From contig JAGMBO010000005.1 in the NCBI GenBank assembly GCA_023129715.1, forward strand, positions 62,001-126,000: 64,000 bases of DNA. Direction: 5' to 3'. A program made the position numbers and the translations under genes. The notes under the pieces were generated by a model. It was given only the letters and a program-made list of their open reading frames with translations. It was not told the origin of the DNA and did not search any database. Shown in pieces: positions 11,026-42,816 of this stretch (positions within the stretch are counted from its first letter, which is position 1; each line of letters begins with the position of its first letter). The DNA comes from Candidatus Eiseniibacteriota bacterium. Lineage in GTDB: Bacteria > Eisenbacteria > RBG-16-71-46 > CAIMUX01 > WJJG01.

Positions 11026-11958
11026 CTAGCGGTAGCTTGCCTTGATCCAGCCCCAGCTCGGGTCGTCTGCGTCATCGGGGGGACACACGTAGTCCCCGCC
11101 ATCCTCGACACAGACCCTATCCGCATGCCAAGTCCCCTCGAGCACCGTGCAATCAGCCTCGGAGAGCATCATGCACACTTCGTCTACACAGCAGGCCCAG
11201 ACGATATCGCAGGGATTCGGGTCGCAGACTGTGCCGACGCCCTCGAAGGTCCCTCCGCTGGTCGTGCACTCGGCCTCCGTCGCCACCGTGCAGACGCCGC
11301 CGAAAGCGCAGCAGGCGCCGGTGTCCGAGACCGGGCAAGGCACGACACCGTCGGTGTAGATGCCCAACGCCCCGAGCGAAGAGGGGGGAAACACGACCTG
11401 GCCACCATGACCCGGCATCGGAATCATCGCTGCATTCTCGGTGGCCGGATTGGCAGCGAGCGGGAGGAGATCTTCGCCGTAGGCATAGCCCGCGAACCAA
11501 TAGAGCGCTTGGTAGTTTCCCGCCCATCCATCCGCACGGGCCACCACAGCGACTCCGTTGTTCGGTCCGGGCCAATTGCCCTGGTCATGCCAAATCTTGT
11601 CGACGATCACGCCATCCGGAACACAGGATCCCGAGGCGACGAAGTAGTAGCTCGACACCCCGTCGTAGTCACCGAGACCGAACTCAAAGCCCTGCCAGGC
11701 TTTCGCCTCGTCCCAAGCGGCGACCACGTACCAGACCGACGAAATCTCCGATTCGGTGTCGATCCGCGCAACCACGTCGCCGCACTCGGTGACGTCGTGG
11801 ATCGTCTCCCAGTCACCACACGCGTCGAGACTGCTCGTATACGTGTAGCCGGGCGGGGCGTGAGTAATCATCACGCCACCGGATAGGTCGTTCTCGTCAG
11901 CCGCGGCAGCATTGCCGAGCAAGGCAACCACCGCCAAAGCCCAGAAAATCCGTCTCAT
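11026..11958 (-). CDS. Secreted Cys-rich protein with GACC modules
   Basis: A 310-residue protein with a clear signal peptide (MRRIFWALAVVALLGNAAAA). An N-terminal beta-rich domain of about 200 residues contains WYVVAAW and FEFGLGDYDG and is followed by two Cys-rich modules, TGACCAFGGVCTVATEAEC...CDPNPC and WACCVDEVCMMLSEADC. The C-terminus is WGWIKASYR. The start follows AAGGAGG at good spacing. The same architecture and a similar C-terminal motif occur in the next gene upstream, so the two are paralogues. TGACC modules of this kind are common in secreted proteins of some FCB and planctomycete genomes but have no assigned function. No catalytic motif is seen. Confidence 0.8.
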   Translation of the reverse strand: MRRIFWALAVVALLGNAAAADENDLSGGVMITHAPPGYTYTSSLDACGDWETIHDVTECGDVVARIDTESEISSVWYVVAAWDEAKAWQGFEFGLGDYDGVSSYYFVASGSCVPDGVIVDKIWHDQGNWPGPNNGVAVVARADGWAGNYQALYWFAGYAYGEDLLPLAANPATENAAMIPMPGHGGQVVFPPSSLGALGIYTDGVVPCPVSDTGACCAFGGVCTVATEAECTTSGGTFEGVGTVCDPNPCDIVWACCVDEVCMMLSEADCTVLEGTWHADRVCVEDGGDYVCPPDDADDPSWGWIKASYR

Positions 11959-12317
11959 TGGCTCGACCTCCTTGACAGAATCCGCATCCGATCCCTTTCC
12001 CACGGGCGCCAGATCCCGCGTAGGATGGACGCGTATGAACCTCCCTACACGCCGCAAGTGAATGGCGAGCCCGGACGTGAGGAACACCTCCCCGACCGGA
12101 CCCCCCGCGGCCACTCACACGCGGGCCAACCCCAAGCACCCACAGGCAGTATGAGCACTTGACGCGCAGTATGCCATCCCACGCGAGAGAGACAAGTCTT
12201 TTTTTTGCAACTGTGTCTAGGATAGCCAACTGGCGGGACTGCCGGGGCAAGAACCGGGGGAAAACGGGTCTCCGGGCTGGCTCGCGGGGCGGAGAGACGC
12301 CGGGGTGGGCACCCGAG
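11959..12317. other. Intergenic region between the two GACC paralogues
   Basis: No open frame with coding character is seen in these 359 bases. It contains an A8 tract on the minus strand (T8 on plus near 12199-12206) and a possible minus-strand promoter at 12168-12195. Two CATACT boxes occur on the minus strand. The remainder shows nothing recognisable. Confidence 0.5.
12168..12195 (-). promoter_or_regulatory. Weak sigma-70-like promoter for the 11958 gene
   Basis: On the minus strand TTGTCT is followed after 16 bases by CATACT (each 4 of 6 matches to consensus), about 200 bases upstream of the start at 11958. An A8 tract just upstream of the -35 could act as an UP element. Confidence 0.35.
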
Positions 12318-13121
12318 CTACTCGTACATCTTCTTGAGCAGCCCCCACGTCGTCTCAATCACCGGCCGATCACAAGGATTGGGGAGGCAGCTGGTGAAAT
12401 CGCCCTGGTAGATCCCCCCCTCTGCAGAGCACTCCTCTTCTTCGAGGATGCTGCACTGGTCGTCCCACAGGCAGCAGGCACCGGTTGGATTGGCCACGCC
12501 CCCGCATGGGTTGTGGCCCATTTGCCCGAAACCGATGGAACCCCGGTTCTCGGCGTAGATCAGGTCGCCTTCGTCCGAACTCACACCGATCACCATGGCA
12601 TTCGCGGTGGTCGGATTGACATCCAGTGGAACGACGACCGGGCAGTAGGCATAGCAGGCGATCCAATAGACTTCGACAAGCTGCCCGCCAGCGGAACCGT
12701 GGGTATGGGCCATAGCGATACCTTCTCCTGGCCCCGGCCAAGCCCCCGTGGTGATCTGCTGCACATCGGATCCCAAGCAGTGACCGAAGTCGATGATCGC
12801 GAGACAGCTCGAGTTGTAGGCACCGAATCCGAACTCGATGGCTCTCAGGCCGGTCGGCCCCGGAGAATTGCTGAAGGAGGCCATCACGAACCAGACCTGG
12901 GCATGCTCCTCATCGACCGCGCCCTGGGGAATAGCCTCTTCGCAGATCGAGAGATCAGCCTGTCCTTCATAGGAAGGTGTCGAACTCGTGTACTGGATCG
13001 TGGGGTTGAGATGAGCGAAGAGCACCGCCCCTTCGAGGGTGTCCGCCATCGCGGGCCGCGCCGCGAGACTCAGCGCCCCAAGGAAGACCGCCGGAATTAG
13101 AAGCCTGGCGTCGCCTCGCAT
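12318..13121 (-). CDS. Secreted Cys-rich protein with GACC module (paralogue)
   Basis: A 267-residue secreted protein with a signal peptide (LLIPAVFLGALSLAARPAMA), a beta-rich domain with WFVMASF and IEFGFGAYNSSC, and one module TGACCLWDDQCSILEEEEC...CLPNPC. It ends ETTWGLLKKMYE. Domain order, the 'WFV.A.F/W' and 'FGFG.Y' segments and the ending match the 310-residue neighbour, with one module fewer. The ATG at 13121 follows GGTGGAGG; the frame stays open for 35 more codons upstream but those lack a ribosome site. Function unknown; probably extracellular or outer-membrane associated. Confidence 0.8.
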   Translation of the reverse strand: MRGDARLLIPAVFLGALSLAARPAMADTLEGAVLFAHLNPTIQYTSSTPSYEGQADLSICEEAIPQGAVDEEHAQVWFVMASFSNSPGPTGLRAIEFGFGAYNSSCLAIIDFGHCLGSDVQQITTGAWPGPGEGIAMAHTHGSAGGQLVEVYWIACYAYCPVVVPLDVNPTTANAMVIGVSSDEGDLIYAENRGSIGFGQMGHNPCGGVANPTGACCLWDDQCSILEEEECSAEGGIYQGDFTSCLPNPCDRPVIETTWGLLKKMYE

Positions 13122-13418: not shown

Positions 13419-14021
13419 CTATGGCGTCCAAATGCATTCATCGCCGTAGTGACGCGCGAAGATGCCAAAGTCCTCCAGATCGGTCTCGCCGTCTCCGGTG
13501 TAGTCCTGGCACGGAGACGTGCTGGAACCGTAGTTACGCGCAAACTCACCGAAGTCCTCGAGATCGACCTTGGCAGAGCACGCGTCGCCCTTCCAGTCAG
13601 TGCTGTTGATCACGTCATAGGTGCGGATCGGGGTTCCCTCTGCATAGATGGTCGCCGCGGCGGCCATCTCGCAGCAACCACCCCACCGCATGTTCATCGT
13701 GACCGCGCCGTAGTCCGGGCTCAACGGATCGTTGTTCGTGTACGCCGTCTGCACCCAAGAATCGCAGATGCACATCTCGCACGCGGCGTTGATCACGATG
13801 GTCACCTCGGCGTCGCCGATCGGCGTGCCGCCGTAGGCAGCAATGAAGATGGTGACGTCGCCATCGGCACGGAACGCCCCATCAGTCAGGAAGCCCGTGA
13901 GCAACGGATTCGACATCAAATCCTGATCCATTACCGTGCAGTAGTCAGGATCGGGAACGCCTGCCCAAGCGCCTCCGCCGACCAGTGCAAGTGCTACCAG
14001 TGCTAACAAAACAATTCTCAT
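13419..14021 (-). CDS. Secreted protein with paired dockerin-like calcium repeats
   Basis: A 200-residue protein with a signal peptide (MRIVLLALVALALVGGGAWA). A middle beta-rich domain contains a Cys cluster (ACEMCICDSW and RWGGCCEMA). At the C-terminus are two loop-helix repeats, KGDACSAKVDLEDFGEFARNYG and DYTGDGETDLEDFGIFARHYG, which have the Asp spacing of the dockerin type I F-hand. The second repeat is canonical and the first has lost part of its loop. Dockerins bind cohesins, but stand-alone dockerin-like pairs are frequent in lineages without cellulosomes. The start at 14021 follows GGGGAGG. A strong promoter is present at 14171-14199. It lies beside two other secreted genes of unknown role. 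Confidence 0.82.
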   Translation of the reverse strand: MRIVLLALVALALVGGGAWAGVPDPDYCTVMDQDLMSNPLLTGFLTDGAFRADGDVTIFIAAYGGTPIGDAEVTIVINAACEMCICDSWVQTAYTNNDPLSPDYGAVTMNMRWGGCCEMAAAATIYAEGTPIRTYDVINSTDWKGDACSAKVDLEDFGEFARNYGSSTSPCQDYTGDGETDLEDFGIFARHYGDECIWTP

Positions 14022-39370: not shown

Positions 39371-40597
39371 ATGGCAGGCGACGCGGCACGGTCCCGCACC
39401 CTCGACCTGCCCGCGGATCCCCGCGCGCTCTTGGCGCACGTGCGGAAACGGGGCGAGCGATTGGTGTTGTCCGGGTTCGAGTTGCGCCTCGCCCGCGCCT
39501 ATGGCTTCTGCCAGGGGGTCCAGCGGGCGGTCGCCCGGGCCTTGCGAGCGGCCGAAGCCACCGTCCCCACCGCTGCTCGGGGAGTGGATCGCGAGGCGGC
39601 CCGCCTGTTCGTGACCGGGGAGATCATTCACAACCCGGCGATCAACGAGCAGCTGCGCCAGGCGGGCGTCATCCGCCTGCCGCCCCCGGGCACACCGGAC
39701 CGCCTAGCGGACATCGGTCCGCAGGATCGCGTGATCATCCCGGCGTTCGGCATCGACATCGATGAGCAGCGCCAAGTGCAGGCGATCGGATGCGAGGTGA
39801 TCGACACGACCTGCGAATGGGTGCGCAAGGTGTGGCAGGCGGCCGACGAGTTCTCCCGCGCGGGCCTCACCCTGGTGATCCACGGCAAGGCCGAGCATGA
39901 AGAGACCCGCGCGACCGCCTCGCGCATCCAGGGCCCCTGGGTCATCGTGCGCACGATTGCCGAGGCGACGGCGATCGCCGCCGCGGTGCGCGATCCGGTA
40001 GGCACCGCGAGCAGGAACCTGCCGACCAGGGACACGGGGATGGCCAGCCTCGGCTTCGATCCGGGCAGAGACCTGGATCGTCTCGGCCTGGTCAATCAGA
40101 CGACCATGCTCGAGAACGAAACCCAGGAGATCTCCCGTCTGCTGCGCGAGGCCCTCACCGAACGTTGGGGCGCCCCACCGGGCCCGGCATGCTACCGGGC
40201 ACTCGAGACCTTCTGCACGGCGACCCAGAAACGCCAGGAGGCCGTCCGTGAGCTGCTTGCCCCGGGAGACCTGCAGATGTTGATCGTCGTCGGCGGATTC
40301 CGTTCGAGCAACACCGCGCATCTGGCGCGCCTGGGAAGCGAGCGGATCCCGACCTTCCATGTCGAGGATGCCGACTGCCTGCTCGATGCGCACCGAATCC
40401 GGCACCGCCCCCCGGGCAAAGCCACGCCGGAAATCACCCGGGACTGGCTGCCCCCACCGCCCCGCCGGATCGGGCTGACCGCCGGCGCCTCGACCCCCGA
40501 GCGCGAAATCGGCCGCCTGCTGCAACGAGTCATCTCACTGCACCTCGAGACTGCCGCCTCCCCGCGCGGCACCCCCAGGGAGGAATCCCCCCGATGA
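39371..40597 (+). CDS. ispH: 4-hydroxy-3-methylbut-2-enyl diphosphate reductase (long form)
   Basis: A 408-residue Fe-S enzyme for the last MEP-pathway step, giving isopentenyl and dimethylallyl diphosphate. The three cluster Cys are in AYGFCQGVQRAV (Cys 47), VIDTTCEWVRKV and ALETFCTATQKRQ. Substrate-binding motifs FVTGEIIHNP, GGFRSSNTAHLA and TAGASTPE are present. Typical IspH has about 310 residues. This one belongs to the longer type with insertions around ASRNLPTRDTGMASLGFDP, known from planctomycetes and relatives. The start follows GGAGGGAG. Its stop overlaps the next start as ATGA. Confidence 0.93.
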   Translation: MAGDAARSRTLDLPADPRALLAHVRKRGERLVLSGFELRLARAYGFCQGVQRAVARALRAAEATVPTAARGVDREAARLFVTGEIIHNPAINEQLRQAGVIRLPPPGTPDRLADIGPQDRVIIPAFGIDIDEQRQVQAIGCEVIDTTCEWVRKVWQAADEFSRAGLTLVIHGKAEHEETRATASRIQGPWVIVRTIAEATAIAAAVRDPVGTASRNLPTRDTGMASLGFDPGRDLDRLGLVNQTTMLENETQEISRLLREALTERWGAPPGPACYRALETFCTATQKRQEAVRELLAPGDLQMLIVVGGFRSSNTAHLARLGSERIPTFHVEDADCLLDAHRIRHRPPGKATPEITRDWLPPPPRRIGLTAGASTPEREIGRLLQRVISLHLETAASPRGTPREESPR

Positions 40598-42816
40598 GCG
40601 GCGCAACCCACCAGCTTTCGTCAGGCCGGAGTCGCCGCGGCGGCCGGCGGCGCTGGTGGCCGCTCGGCGGAGGCCTCGCGATCGCCGCGGGAGCCCTCTT
40701 CGTCTTCAGCCCCCTGGTCAGCTGGGCGGGGCAGCCCCCCCCCGGGGGCCTCGTCGGTCGGGCAGCCCTGGCGAGCACCAGCGTCCCCGGCCCCGACGAG
40801 GAGAGCACCGCCCGGGTGAGCACCAGCGTCCCCGGCCCCGGCAAGGAGAACGCCGCCCGCGCGAGCCACTGGATCAATTGGACTCCGGGGCCGGAATCGG
40901 AACCCGACCGCAGCGGATACGATGCGCTCCATGTCGATCTGACCACCGAGATCGAATTCGCCACCGAGACGATTGTCGGCGAGGCGGTCTGGCTGCTCGA
41001 GCTGCGCGAGCCGTTGCCCGCCGACCTGTGTTTCGACTTCAGTGACGCGATGACGGTCACCGGCGCCTGGATCGCCGATCTTCCGGCGCGCTTCTTCCAG
41101 GCCGAGAACCGGCTGCACGTCACCCTCGGCGAGGCGCCGATCGCGGGAGAGCGCATGACGGTCCGGCTGACCTATGGTGGCAGTCCGGAACGGGGCTTCC
41201 TGCTCGGCTTCGAGTTTCGCGAGCTGGCGGGCGTGCCGGTTGCCTACACCAACTGCGAGCCGGTCGGCGCGCGCACCTGGTGGCCGTGCAAGGATCGCCC
41301 CGATGAGAAGTTCACCGCTGATCTGCGCTTCATCGTACCCGACACACTCGTGGCCGCCTCGAACGGCCTCCTGGAGGCGGTGACCCCTCTGCCGGATGGG
41401 CGCCGCTGCTACCACTGGGTGGAACGCTATCCGATTCCGCCCTATCTGATCAGCGTCGTCGCCACCGATTTCGCCTGCTTCGCCGATGAGTATGCGACCC
41501 TCGACGGCCGGCGCATGCCACTCACCTACTACGCCTTCCCCGCGCACCTCGCCAACGCCCAGCGCCAGTGGGCGGTGACCCCGGAAGCGATCACCTTCCT
41601 CGCCCGCACCTTCGGCGAGTACCCGTTCGTCGAAGAGAAGTACGGCATGGCGCAGTTTCCATGGGGCGGGGCGATGGAGCATCAGACGCTCACCAGCATG
41701 GGGAGCTACTTCCTCGACAATCCCGCTCCCCAAGACTGGATTATCGTTCACGAGCTCGCCCACCAGTGGTGGGGCAACTGGGTGACCTGCGGCACGTGGC
41801 GCGACATCTGGCTCAACGAGGGCTTCGCCGTTTACTGCGAGGCCCTCTGGGCGGAACACCGTGGGGGCATCGACAGCCTGCATGCACACATGGCCTACAA
41901 TCGGCGGCCCGGTTTCGCCGGATCGGTCTATGACCCCGACTTCATCTTCAACGCGACCGTATATCGCAAGGGCGCCTGGGTGCTCCACATGCTGCGGCAT
42001 GTCGTCGGGGAAAAGACCTTCTTCTCGGTCCTGGGCGACTATGGCCGGCGGCACGCCTACGCCACTGCGGTGACCGAGGACCTGCGAACCGCCTTCGCCG
42101 CCGCCACCGGAGACTCGCTGCATTGGTTCTTCGACCCATGGGTCTATGGCGAGGGGCGTCCGCTCTACGGTGTCTGGTGGGATCGATTGCGCCAAGCAGA
42201 GGACGGGCAGACGCAGGTGCGCGTGCGGATCGTCCAGGAGCCGAGTGGACCGCAGCTCTTCACCATGCCGCTCGATGCGCGCTTCCTGCTCAGCAATGGC
42301 GAGATCTTCGAGACGACGCTCTGGGACAGTCTCCCCGAGCAGGAATTCCTCGTGACCACGCCGGCACCGCCCGAGTCCCTGATCATCGATCCCGAGCAGT
42401 GGGTGTTGTGCCGGGTCCACTACGGAGCGCTCCCCTCGGCGGTCGCGGGCAGCGCGCGCGCGCCGACGGCATTCGCCCCACCGGCGCAGCTCGGCGCCCC
42501 CTACCCGAACCCGGCGCAGTCGGAGATCTGGATTCCCTTGCGTTGGCGCCACCCGGTGACGGAAACACCCGGGATAACCAGCGGCAACGAGACGGCGATC
42601 GAGTTGGCAATCTACGACGCGGGGGGACGGCTGGTGCGGCGCCTCGCGCCCCGCTACGCCGGACCGCGGGAGGACGGTTTTCACTGGGATGGACGCGCGA
42701 CCGGCGGCGCACCCGCCCCGGCGGGGGTCTACTTCGGTCGGTTGGAGGGCCGCGGCCTAGCCGGTGAAACGCGACCGGGGACTGCGCACGGCGTGCGCCT
42801 GCTCTTGCTCAACTAG
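40594..42816 (+). CDS. Secreted M1-family zinc aminopeptidase with FlgD/T9SS-like C-terminal domain
   Basis: A 740-residue protein. An N-terminal Arg-rich signal/anchor segment (LAIAAGALFVFSPLVSWAG) is followed by a linker with a tandem duplication (STSVPGPDEESTAR then STSVPGPGKENAAR). An M1 peptidase core has WGGAMEHQT (exopeptidase motif) and HELAHQWWG...WLNEGF, giving the zinc ligands His 386, His 390 and Glu 409. The last 110 residues (LGAPYPNPAQSEIWIPL...VELAIYDAGGRLVRRLAP-like...WDGRATGGAPAPAGVYF) match FlgD_ig or type A sorting domains used in T9SS-type or outer-surface display. It is coupled to ispH by an ATGA overlap, which is functionally unexpected. Confidence 0.9.
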   Translation: MSGATHQLSSGRSRRGGRRRWWPLGGGLAIAAGALFVFSPLVSWAGQPPPGGLVGRAALASTSVPGPDEESTARVSTSVPGPGKENAARASHWINWTPGPESEPDRSGYDALHVDLTTEIEFATETIVGEAVWLLELREPLPADLCFDFSDAMTVTGAWIADLPARFFQAENRLHVTLGEAPIAGERMTVRLTYGGSPERGFLLGFEFRELAGVPVAYTNCEPVGARTWWPCKDRPDEKFTADLRFIVPDTLVAASNGLLEAVTPLPDGRRCYHWVERYPIPPYLISVVATDFACFADEYATLDGRRMPLTYYAFPAHLANAQRQWAVTPEAITFLARTFGEYPFVEEKYGMAQFPWGGAMEHQTLTSMGSYFLDNPAPQDWIIVHELAHQWWGNWVTCGTWRDIWLNEGFAVYCEALWAEHRGGIDSLHAHMAYNRRPGFAGSVYDPDFIFNATVYRKGAWVLHMLRHVVGEKTFFSVLGDYGRRHAYATAVTEDLRTAFAAATGDSLHWFFDPWVYGEGRPLYGVWWDRLRQAEDGQTQVRVRIVQEPSGPQLFTMPLDARFLLSNGEIFETTLWDSLPEQEFLVTTPAPPESLIIDPEQWVLCRVHYGALPSAVAGSARAPTAFAPPAQLGAPYPNPAQSEIWIPLRWRHPVTETPGITSGNETAIELAIYDAGGRLVRRLAPRYAGPREDGFHWDGRATGGAPAPAGVYFGRLEGRGLAGETRPGTAHGVRLLLLN

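Follow-up and report, generated by a model that had tools for sequence, protein, structure and literature searches.

A ten-residue C-terminal tag on exported proteins of Candidatus Eisenbacteria and its relatives as a candidate envelope sorting signal

Why do two exported proteins that have diverged over most of their length end in nearly the same ten residues? The question is raised by genes A and B, which lie on the minus strand of a 64,000-nucleotide stretch of a Candidatus Eiseniibacteriota genome (GenBank assembly GCA_023129715.1, contig JAGMBO010000005.1; the whole stretch is hereafter the window, and its genome, of 4.83 Mb in 186 contigs, is G000). Protein A ends in DDPSWGWIKASYR and protein B in IETTWGLLKKMYE, each directly followed by the stop codon. 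A preliminary description of this DNA had credited both proteins with a signal-like start, a similar beta domain, one or two cysteine modules and a shared end motif, and translation and alignment bear this out: in both genes a purine-rich stretch precedes the ATG start, a hydrophobic signal-like segment opens the protein, and cysteine modules of the GACC...NPC type (two in A, one in B) are followed by a short linker and the tail. A and B are paralogues, 32% identical in an alignment of 255 aa (E 5e-34). We find that their common ending, which we call the WG-K tag, is C-terminal, residue-specific, modular and lineage-wide, that it is exchangeable with another sorting tail, and that it sits on proteins with export signals.

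Within the window, A and B are the sole tag-ended open reading frames (ORFs) of at least 60 aa. A motif search beyond the two paralogues, named beforehand as the check on the preliminary description, excluded a restriction to A and B. In their own genome the pattern WGx[IL]KxxY gave 11 matches vs 0 in the reversed control, all 11 at an ORF end, and the relaxed pattern WGx[ILVMF][KR]xx[YF] gave 59 vs 4; 56 of these 59 lay within nine residues of the stop and the remaining three at 13, 14 and 19 residues. Because neither pattern held a stop codon, the C-terminal position is itself a result. Across the phylum, the strict pattern [ST]WGx[ILV]Kxx[FY]R occurred in 44 of 47 Candidatus Eisenbacteria genomes (740 matches, 0 in the control; median 16 per genome), with at least ten matches in 32 of the 47, and all 30 strict-pattern loci that were fetched were C-terminal. 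Genomes of one family (f11) had 0 to 3 matches each, and the bearers read there were LTD proteins, choice-of-anchor V proteins and a few other exported proteins. With further matches in 69 of 296 Bacteroidota genomes, the earlier suggestion that many proteins of the lineage use the motif is strongly supported.

The conservation concerns particular residues. The tag and the positions before it follow the consensus P-[VAT]-E-x-x-[ST]-W-G-x-[ILV]-K-x-[LMI]-[YF]-R, which is normally the protein end. A search of three genomes that allowed two mismatches anywhere and had the stop in the pattern returned 123 matches, a few of them due to chance, vs 1 in the control. When these were translated, W was present in 121, G in 117 (Ser in 4, Ala in 2), K in 122 with no replacement by R, and Y or F in 120; Ser or Thr preceded the W in 117, and Ile, Val, Leu or Met stood at +3 in 121. 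Arginine occupied +8 in 85 of the 123, K, E and Q being tolerated there. Upstream, P was found at -6 in 54% and E at -4 in 39%, and exactly one residue followed the Y/F in 214 of 258 tagged proteins. Dozens of proteins per genome end in the tag, and many of them are unrelated outside it; within it, W, G, K and the aromatic residue hardly vary. Since the codons at conserved positions vary synonymously, it is the protein sequence that is under selection rather than a repeat in the DNA.

What nearly all tagged proteins share besides the tag is an export signal. By a hydrophobic-window heuristic, 135 of 137 tagged ORFs had a signal-like start; for the other ORFs at these loci the figure was 300 of 1019. 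We scanned 118 proteins, picked from 202 full-length tagged proteins to fit a residue limit, against Pfam; among the best 25 of 32 families, Beta_helix was matched by 27 proteins, and others matched LTD, NHL, FG-GAP, PKD, fn3, laminin-G and propeller families. Beta-helix paralogues of G000 (loci L046, L049, L055 and L056) carry extra residues, often REGTD, beyond the tag. The NCBIfam matches of the same 118 proteins included choice-of-anchor families V (4 proteins, two cases confirmed above the cut-off), E, A and J (1 each), as well as families named for MYXO-CTERM, rhombosortase or PEP-CTERM anchoring; matches to ScyF and ExeM fell below their cut-offs. Choice-of-anchor families are so named because their members carry differing known anchors, and the tag sits at the anchor place. 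No Pfam or NCBIfam family for the tail itself appeared in these scans. In sequence searches against solved structures, query A4 had no match and query A3 had three weak ones (a phosphatase receptor and serine-rich adhesins, E 0.001-0.05).

The tag also occurs outside the phylum. When 84,980 species genomes were scanned, at least 113 stretches matched, of which 80 loci were listed. The matches listed came from Eisenbacteria, Krumholzibacteriia, Effluviviaceae, Hymenobacter, Ignavibacteria, Kapaibacterium and a few other taxa, and 84 of the 85 matches in the loci listed were in frame at an ORF end, the other being a chance match in Nocardia. The scan pattern included the stop (as TRR, which also allows TGG), so that the C-terminal position is here by construction and the scan adds open upstream frames and organism names. 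With a stop-free pattern, checked in 27 genomes, an Effluviviaceae genome had 46 matches, four named Krumholzibacteriia genomes 7 to 28, Hymenobacter 1 or 2, and Ignavibacteria, Kapaibacterium and Nocardia 1 each. The Bacteroidota, to which the Ignavibacteria genome G052 belongs, gave 71 matches to the motif plus stop vs 1 in the control, nearly always one per tag-bearing genome. Of 30 Bacteroidota loci read, 29 encode a single protein family, the exception (L321) being a 29-residue frame. This core protein consists of a signal segment, an FN3-like domain of about 100 aa and a tail of the type [KR][ST]WG[STM]IKx[LM]FR, and the tail is its best-conserved part, overall identity dropping to 25-57%. 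The small core protein is found at the Bacteroidota loci L296-L325, L122, L112 and others, and in Ignavibacteria its gene often lies between genes that look MATE-like and maf-like by eye. The tag is probably old, because Bacteroidota keep a single tagged protein while Eisenbacteria, Krumholzibacteriia and Effluviviaceae tag many. The lineages with many tags may be related, since a paper on Effluviviacota reports a shared root of Latescibacterota, Eisenbacteria, Effluviviacota and JABDJQ01 (PMC11323493).

What could such an ending do? The tag has neither a transmembrane segment nor the motifs of the type IX secretion system (T9SS). In an AlphaFold model of B the predicted tail helix covers exactly WGLLKKMY, after the linker, and in the model of a Bacteroidota core protein a tail helix spans residues 120-130, again after a linker, with a predicted local distance difference test score (pLDDT) of 62-68. 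A Ser/Thr helix cap, with W, I, K and Y on one face, would explain the conserved pattern. We lean towards reading the WG-K tag as a C-terminal signal for sorting to, or attachment in, the envelope, and regard this as somewhat probable. A tagged protein would leave the cytoplasm by Sec export; its tag would form a short helix with the Ser/Thr before it as the cap; the W/I/K/Y face of the helix would dock in a groove of one dedicated envelope receptor; and that receptor would carry the protein to the outer membrane or cell surface or fix it there. The sorting, secretion or anchoring role suggested in the preliminary description fits the exported bearers, the unrelated ectodomains, the exchange with T9SS-type tails set out below and the choice-of-anchor families, and we retain it as a proposed role.

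Several observations weigh against a sorting or attachment signal of this kind. When 800 ORFs from 133 loci were clustered, no non-tagged family recurred beside the tags beyond generic genes, and neither the SprA stretch of G000 nor two other SprA-positive stretches hold a tagged ORF. Lipobox-bearing, lipoprotein-like sequences make up 24 of the 202 tagged proteins, and lipoproteins need no second anchor. The helix is modelled at a pLDDT of only 62-72, and the hydrophobic moments of the tag as helix (0.52) and as strand (0.56) do not separate the two forms. Three of the 47 phylum genomes have no strict match. Finally, a G000 protein family has five residues (REGTD) beyond the motif, so the C-terminus need not strictly be free.

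An indication of sorting comes from a second C-terminal signal of the same lineage. T9SS-type tails occur in all 47 phylum genomes, with 45 in G000. By a hidden Markov model (HMM) for which we used 18 tails from the loci under study, one such tail ends an 854-aa ORF of the window itself (40252-42816, plus strand; E 1.5e-12). Among the 800 ORFs, 41 had a T9SS-type tail, 92 had the tag and none had both, and the tail HMM matched none of these 92 and 1 of all 258 tagged proteins. The sole double case among the 258 is a small exported protein in which a FlgD_ig (T9SS-tail-like) domain is followed by the tag (L226:1310-1837, minus strand). Ectodomains are common to the two classes, with 26 tagged and 4 T9SS-tailed proteins sharing them. 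The beta domain of A shows 40% identity over 178 aa with the N-terminus of a G000 S8 protease that ends in a T9SS-type tail (L055:333-3224, contig C182, with a cohesin-fold domain at its N-terminus). After removal of duplicates, 23 closed ORFs contain the beta domain of the window proteins, and 14 of them end in the tag, 1 in a T9SS-type tail and 8 otherwise. The GACC...NPC cysteine module, too, is seen in proteins with either tail. Homologous exported domains with either tail, together with choice-of-anchor membership, are the signature of a C-terminal sorting signal. Exchangeable suffixes on one ectodomain, that is, homologues with other anchors, are also described for earlier sorting signals such as PEP-CTERM (PMC3237569).

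This exchange also suits a different explanation, in which the tag would be an alternative minimal T9SS client signal, read by the T9SS shuttle or translocon in place of the beta domain. The translocon domain SprA_N was matched in G000 and in 39 of the 47 genomes, which is no proof that T9SS reads the tag, and its lack in the other eight is uninformative except in G041 (93% complete), the other seven being less than 90% complete. Moreover, in three of three Kapabacteria loci examined (L102:4223-6291, L129:4673-6923 and L192:1269-3327), the gene for the tagged protein either overlaps or directly adjoins one whose product has a T9SS-like tail. Tag and T9SS-tail counts are correlated (rho 0.44, p 0.002), both tracking genome size, whereas their densities are not (rho 0.17, p 0.26). 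G011 has 64 T9SS tails and no tag, and G041 has the tag and no SprA_N match. The two signals share genomes and homologous ectodomains and differ in form: a T9SS C-terminal domain (Por_Secre_tail PF18962, FlgD_ig-like) is a beta domain that bears motifs B, D and E and has no fewer than 40 residues, the shortest described, of 40-51 residues, having GxY and basic motifs (PMC11969387), whereas the WG-K tag has about 10 residues, no GxY and a helix as its model. We consider a minimal T9SS signal unlikely, while granting it a real chance. The preliminary description had also suggested looking for a co-occurring translocase; SprA is widespread in the phylum, but the densities of tags and T9SS tails do not go together and nothing tag-specific was found. 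Among tag neighbours there was no tag-specific sortase or translocase, and no genome-wide co-distribution search for sortase, exosortase or rhombosortase was made.

The likeness to PEP-CTERM and T9SS signals that had been drawn at the outset holds in that the tag is a suffix on many exported proteins, and fails in build, as it is too short and lacks a transmembrane segment and GxY. Like PEP-CTERM, GlyGly-CTERM and LPXTG signals, it follows unrelated proteins that mostly open with an N-terminal signal by the above heuristic, has homologues of its bearers with other anchors and ends with a basic residue. PEP-CTERM-type signals consist of a motif, a transmembrane helix and a basic cluster, whereas here the motif ends the protein, no transmembrane helix comes after it and no processing enzyme is known. 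The tag differs from the choice-of-anchor families in that no family for the WG-K tail was among the results for the 118 proteins. A search of the open-access PubMed Central literature, literal motif strings included, found no description of the tag.

Could the tag instead bind the membrane directly, as a C-terminal amphipathic helix without a protein receptor? It packs W, I/V/L, L and Y/F plus K and R into nine residues, its helix moment exceeds that of shuffled sequences (0.52 vs 0.40), and both models are helical. Membrane-binding helices, however, are usually degenerate in sequence. The tag is not: it keeps residue identity and not mere character, with K never replaced by R and W never replaced in clear tags, which leaves direct membrane binding only a small chance.

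The domains that precede the tags of A and B (Table 1) bear on the next alternative. Their beta domain has a cohesin fold, judging from the predicted model of B: in Foldseek the first-ranked known structure was 2vo8 (E 2.4e-5), and in VIA-align the first 41 rows were all cohesins (Z 9.0-11.7), with 2vo8 at Z 11.7 and a root-mean-square deviation of 2.8 over 128 residues. The fold is thus that of cellulosome cohesin modules, while membership of the curated cohesin sequence family was not seen, A and B matching 0 Pfam families at E up to 5. PHROGs likewise gave no match for A, B and one Bacteroidota core protein. The beta domain is present in 13 of the 47 phylum genomes, with at most 37 matches (G002). 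The neighbouring ORF scored 16.4 bits against dockerin_GC (cut-off 29), and its sole PDB matches were three at E 0.4-1, two cellulosomal scaffoldin chains and a hyaluronidase chain, which we take to be of dockerin type. A cohesin-dockerin pairing of A and B with this ORF is a weakly supported lead and not a result.

Table 1 Genes A and B, their parts and the neighbouring reading frame, in window positions
Feature	Position	Strand	Basis
Gene A, predicted exported protein, 310 aa: signal segment, cohesin-fold domain, two cysteine modules, WG tag	11026..11958	-	
Signal-peptide-like N-terminus of A, residues 1-20	11899..11958	-	from sequence
Cohesin-fold beta domain of A	11323..11898	-	fold taken from model of B
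Two GACC/ACC cysteine modules and linker of A	11059..11322	-	
C-terminal tag SWGWIKASYR of A	11029..11058	-	
Gene B, predicted exported protein, 267 aa: signal segment, cohesin-fold domain, one cysteine module, WG tag	12318..13121	-	
Signal-peptide-like N-terminus of B, residues 1-26	13044..13121	-	from sequence
Cohesin-fold beta domain of B	12492..13043	-	predicted model and structure comparison
GACC cysteine module and linker of B	12351..12491	-	
C-terminal tag TWGLLKKMYE of B	12321..12350	-	WGLLKKMY modelled as helix 259-266 (pLDDT about 72)
Neighbouring exported ORF, 200 aa, weakly dockerin-like C-terminus, no WG tag, possible partner of the cohesin-fold domains	13419..14021	-	

Scaffold-type assemblies may therefore exist, since tagged cohesin-fold proteins adjoin a weakly dockerin-like one, and the tag might be an assembly or quality-control handle by which proteins either dock on a scaffold or are singled out for a periplasmic protease. 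The tagged domains are very varied for a single complex, and as a protease mark the tag would make targets of dozens of exported proteins per genome, so that we rate a handle slightly below direct membrane binding. A covalent role, in which the lysine would be the acceptor of a link to peptidoglycan or another polymer, is very improbable. It is suggested by a lysine that is present in 122 of 123 tags, is never R and lies near the C-terminus of exported proteins, and by the Braun lipoprotein (Lpp), whose short C-terminal helix likewise ends with Lys, Tyr and Arg. The tag lysine is not terminal, however, four residues coming after it; most tagged proteins are not lipoprotein-like; and W, G and Y/F are equally invariant. 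Chance or a DNA-level repeat, for which nothing speaks except the shortness of the motif, was rejected as practically without probability, given reversed controls near zero, synonymous codon variety and conservation between phyla.

Returning to the sorting signal, we tentatively propose, in the knowledge that it may well be wrong, a sorting system of Fibrobacterota-Chlorobiota-Bacteroidota (FCB) bacteria and their uncultured relatives that would rest on a ten-residue receptor-docked helix and one receptor, in place of a beta domain or a transmembrane sorting signal. Bacteroidota would have a single ancestral client of it, and each genome of Eisenbacteria, Krumholzibacteriia and Effluviviaceae would have dozens. 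C-terminal sorting tags are already known; what is new is one so short, without a membrane segment or a beta domain. Earlier C-terminal sorting signals led to their enzyme or machine, namely sortase, exosortase, rhombosortase and T9SS, and a tag so frequent and so strictly conserved should likewise lead to its machinery. The Bacteroidota protein, present in a single copy, gives a way in through organisms that can be cultivated (Hymenobacter), and the tag is short enough for trial as a transplantable tag. For phyla known almost only from metagenomes, it yields lists of surface proteins.
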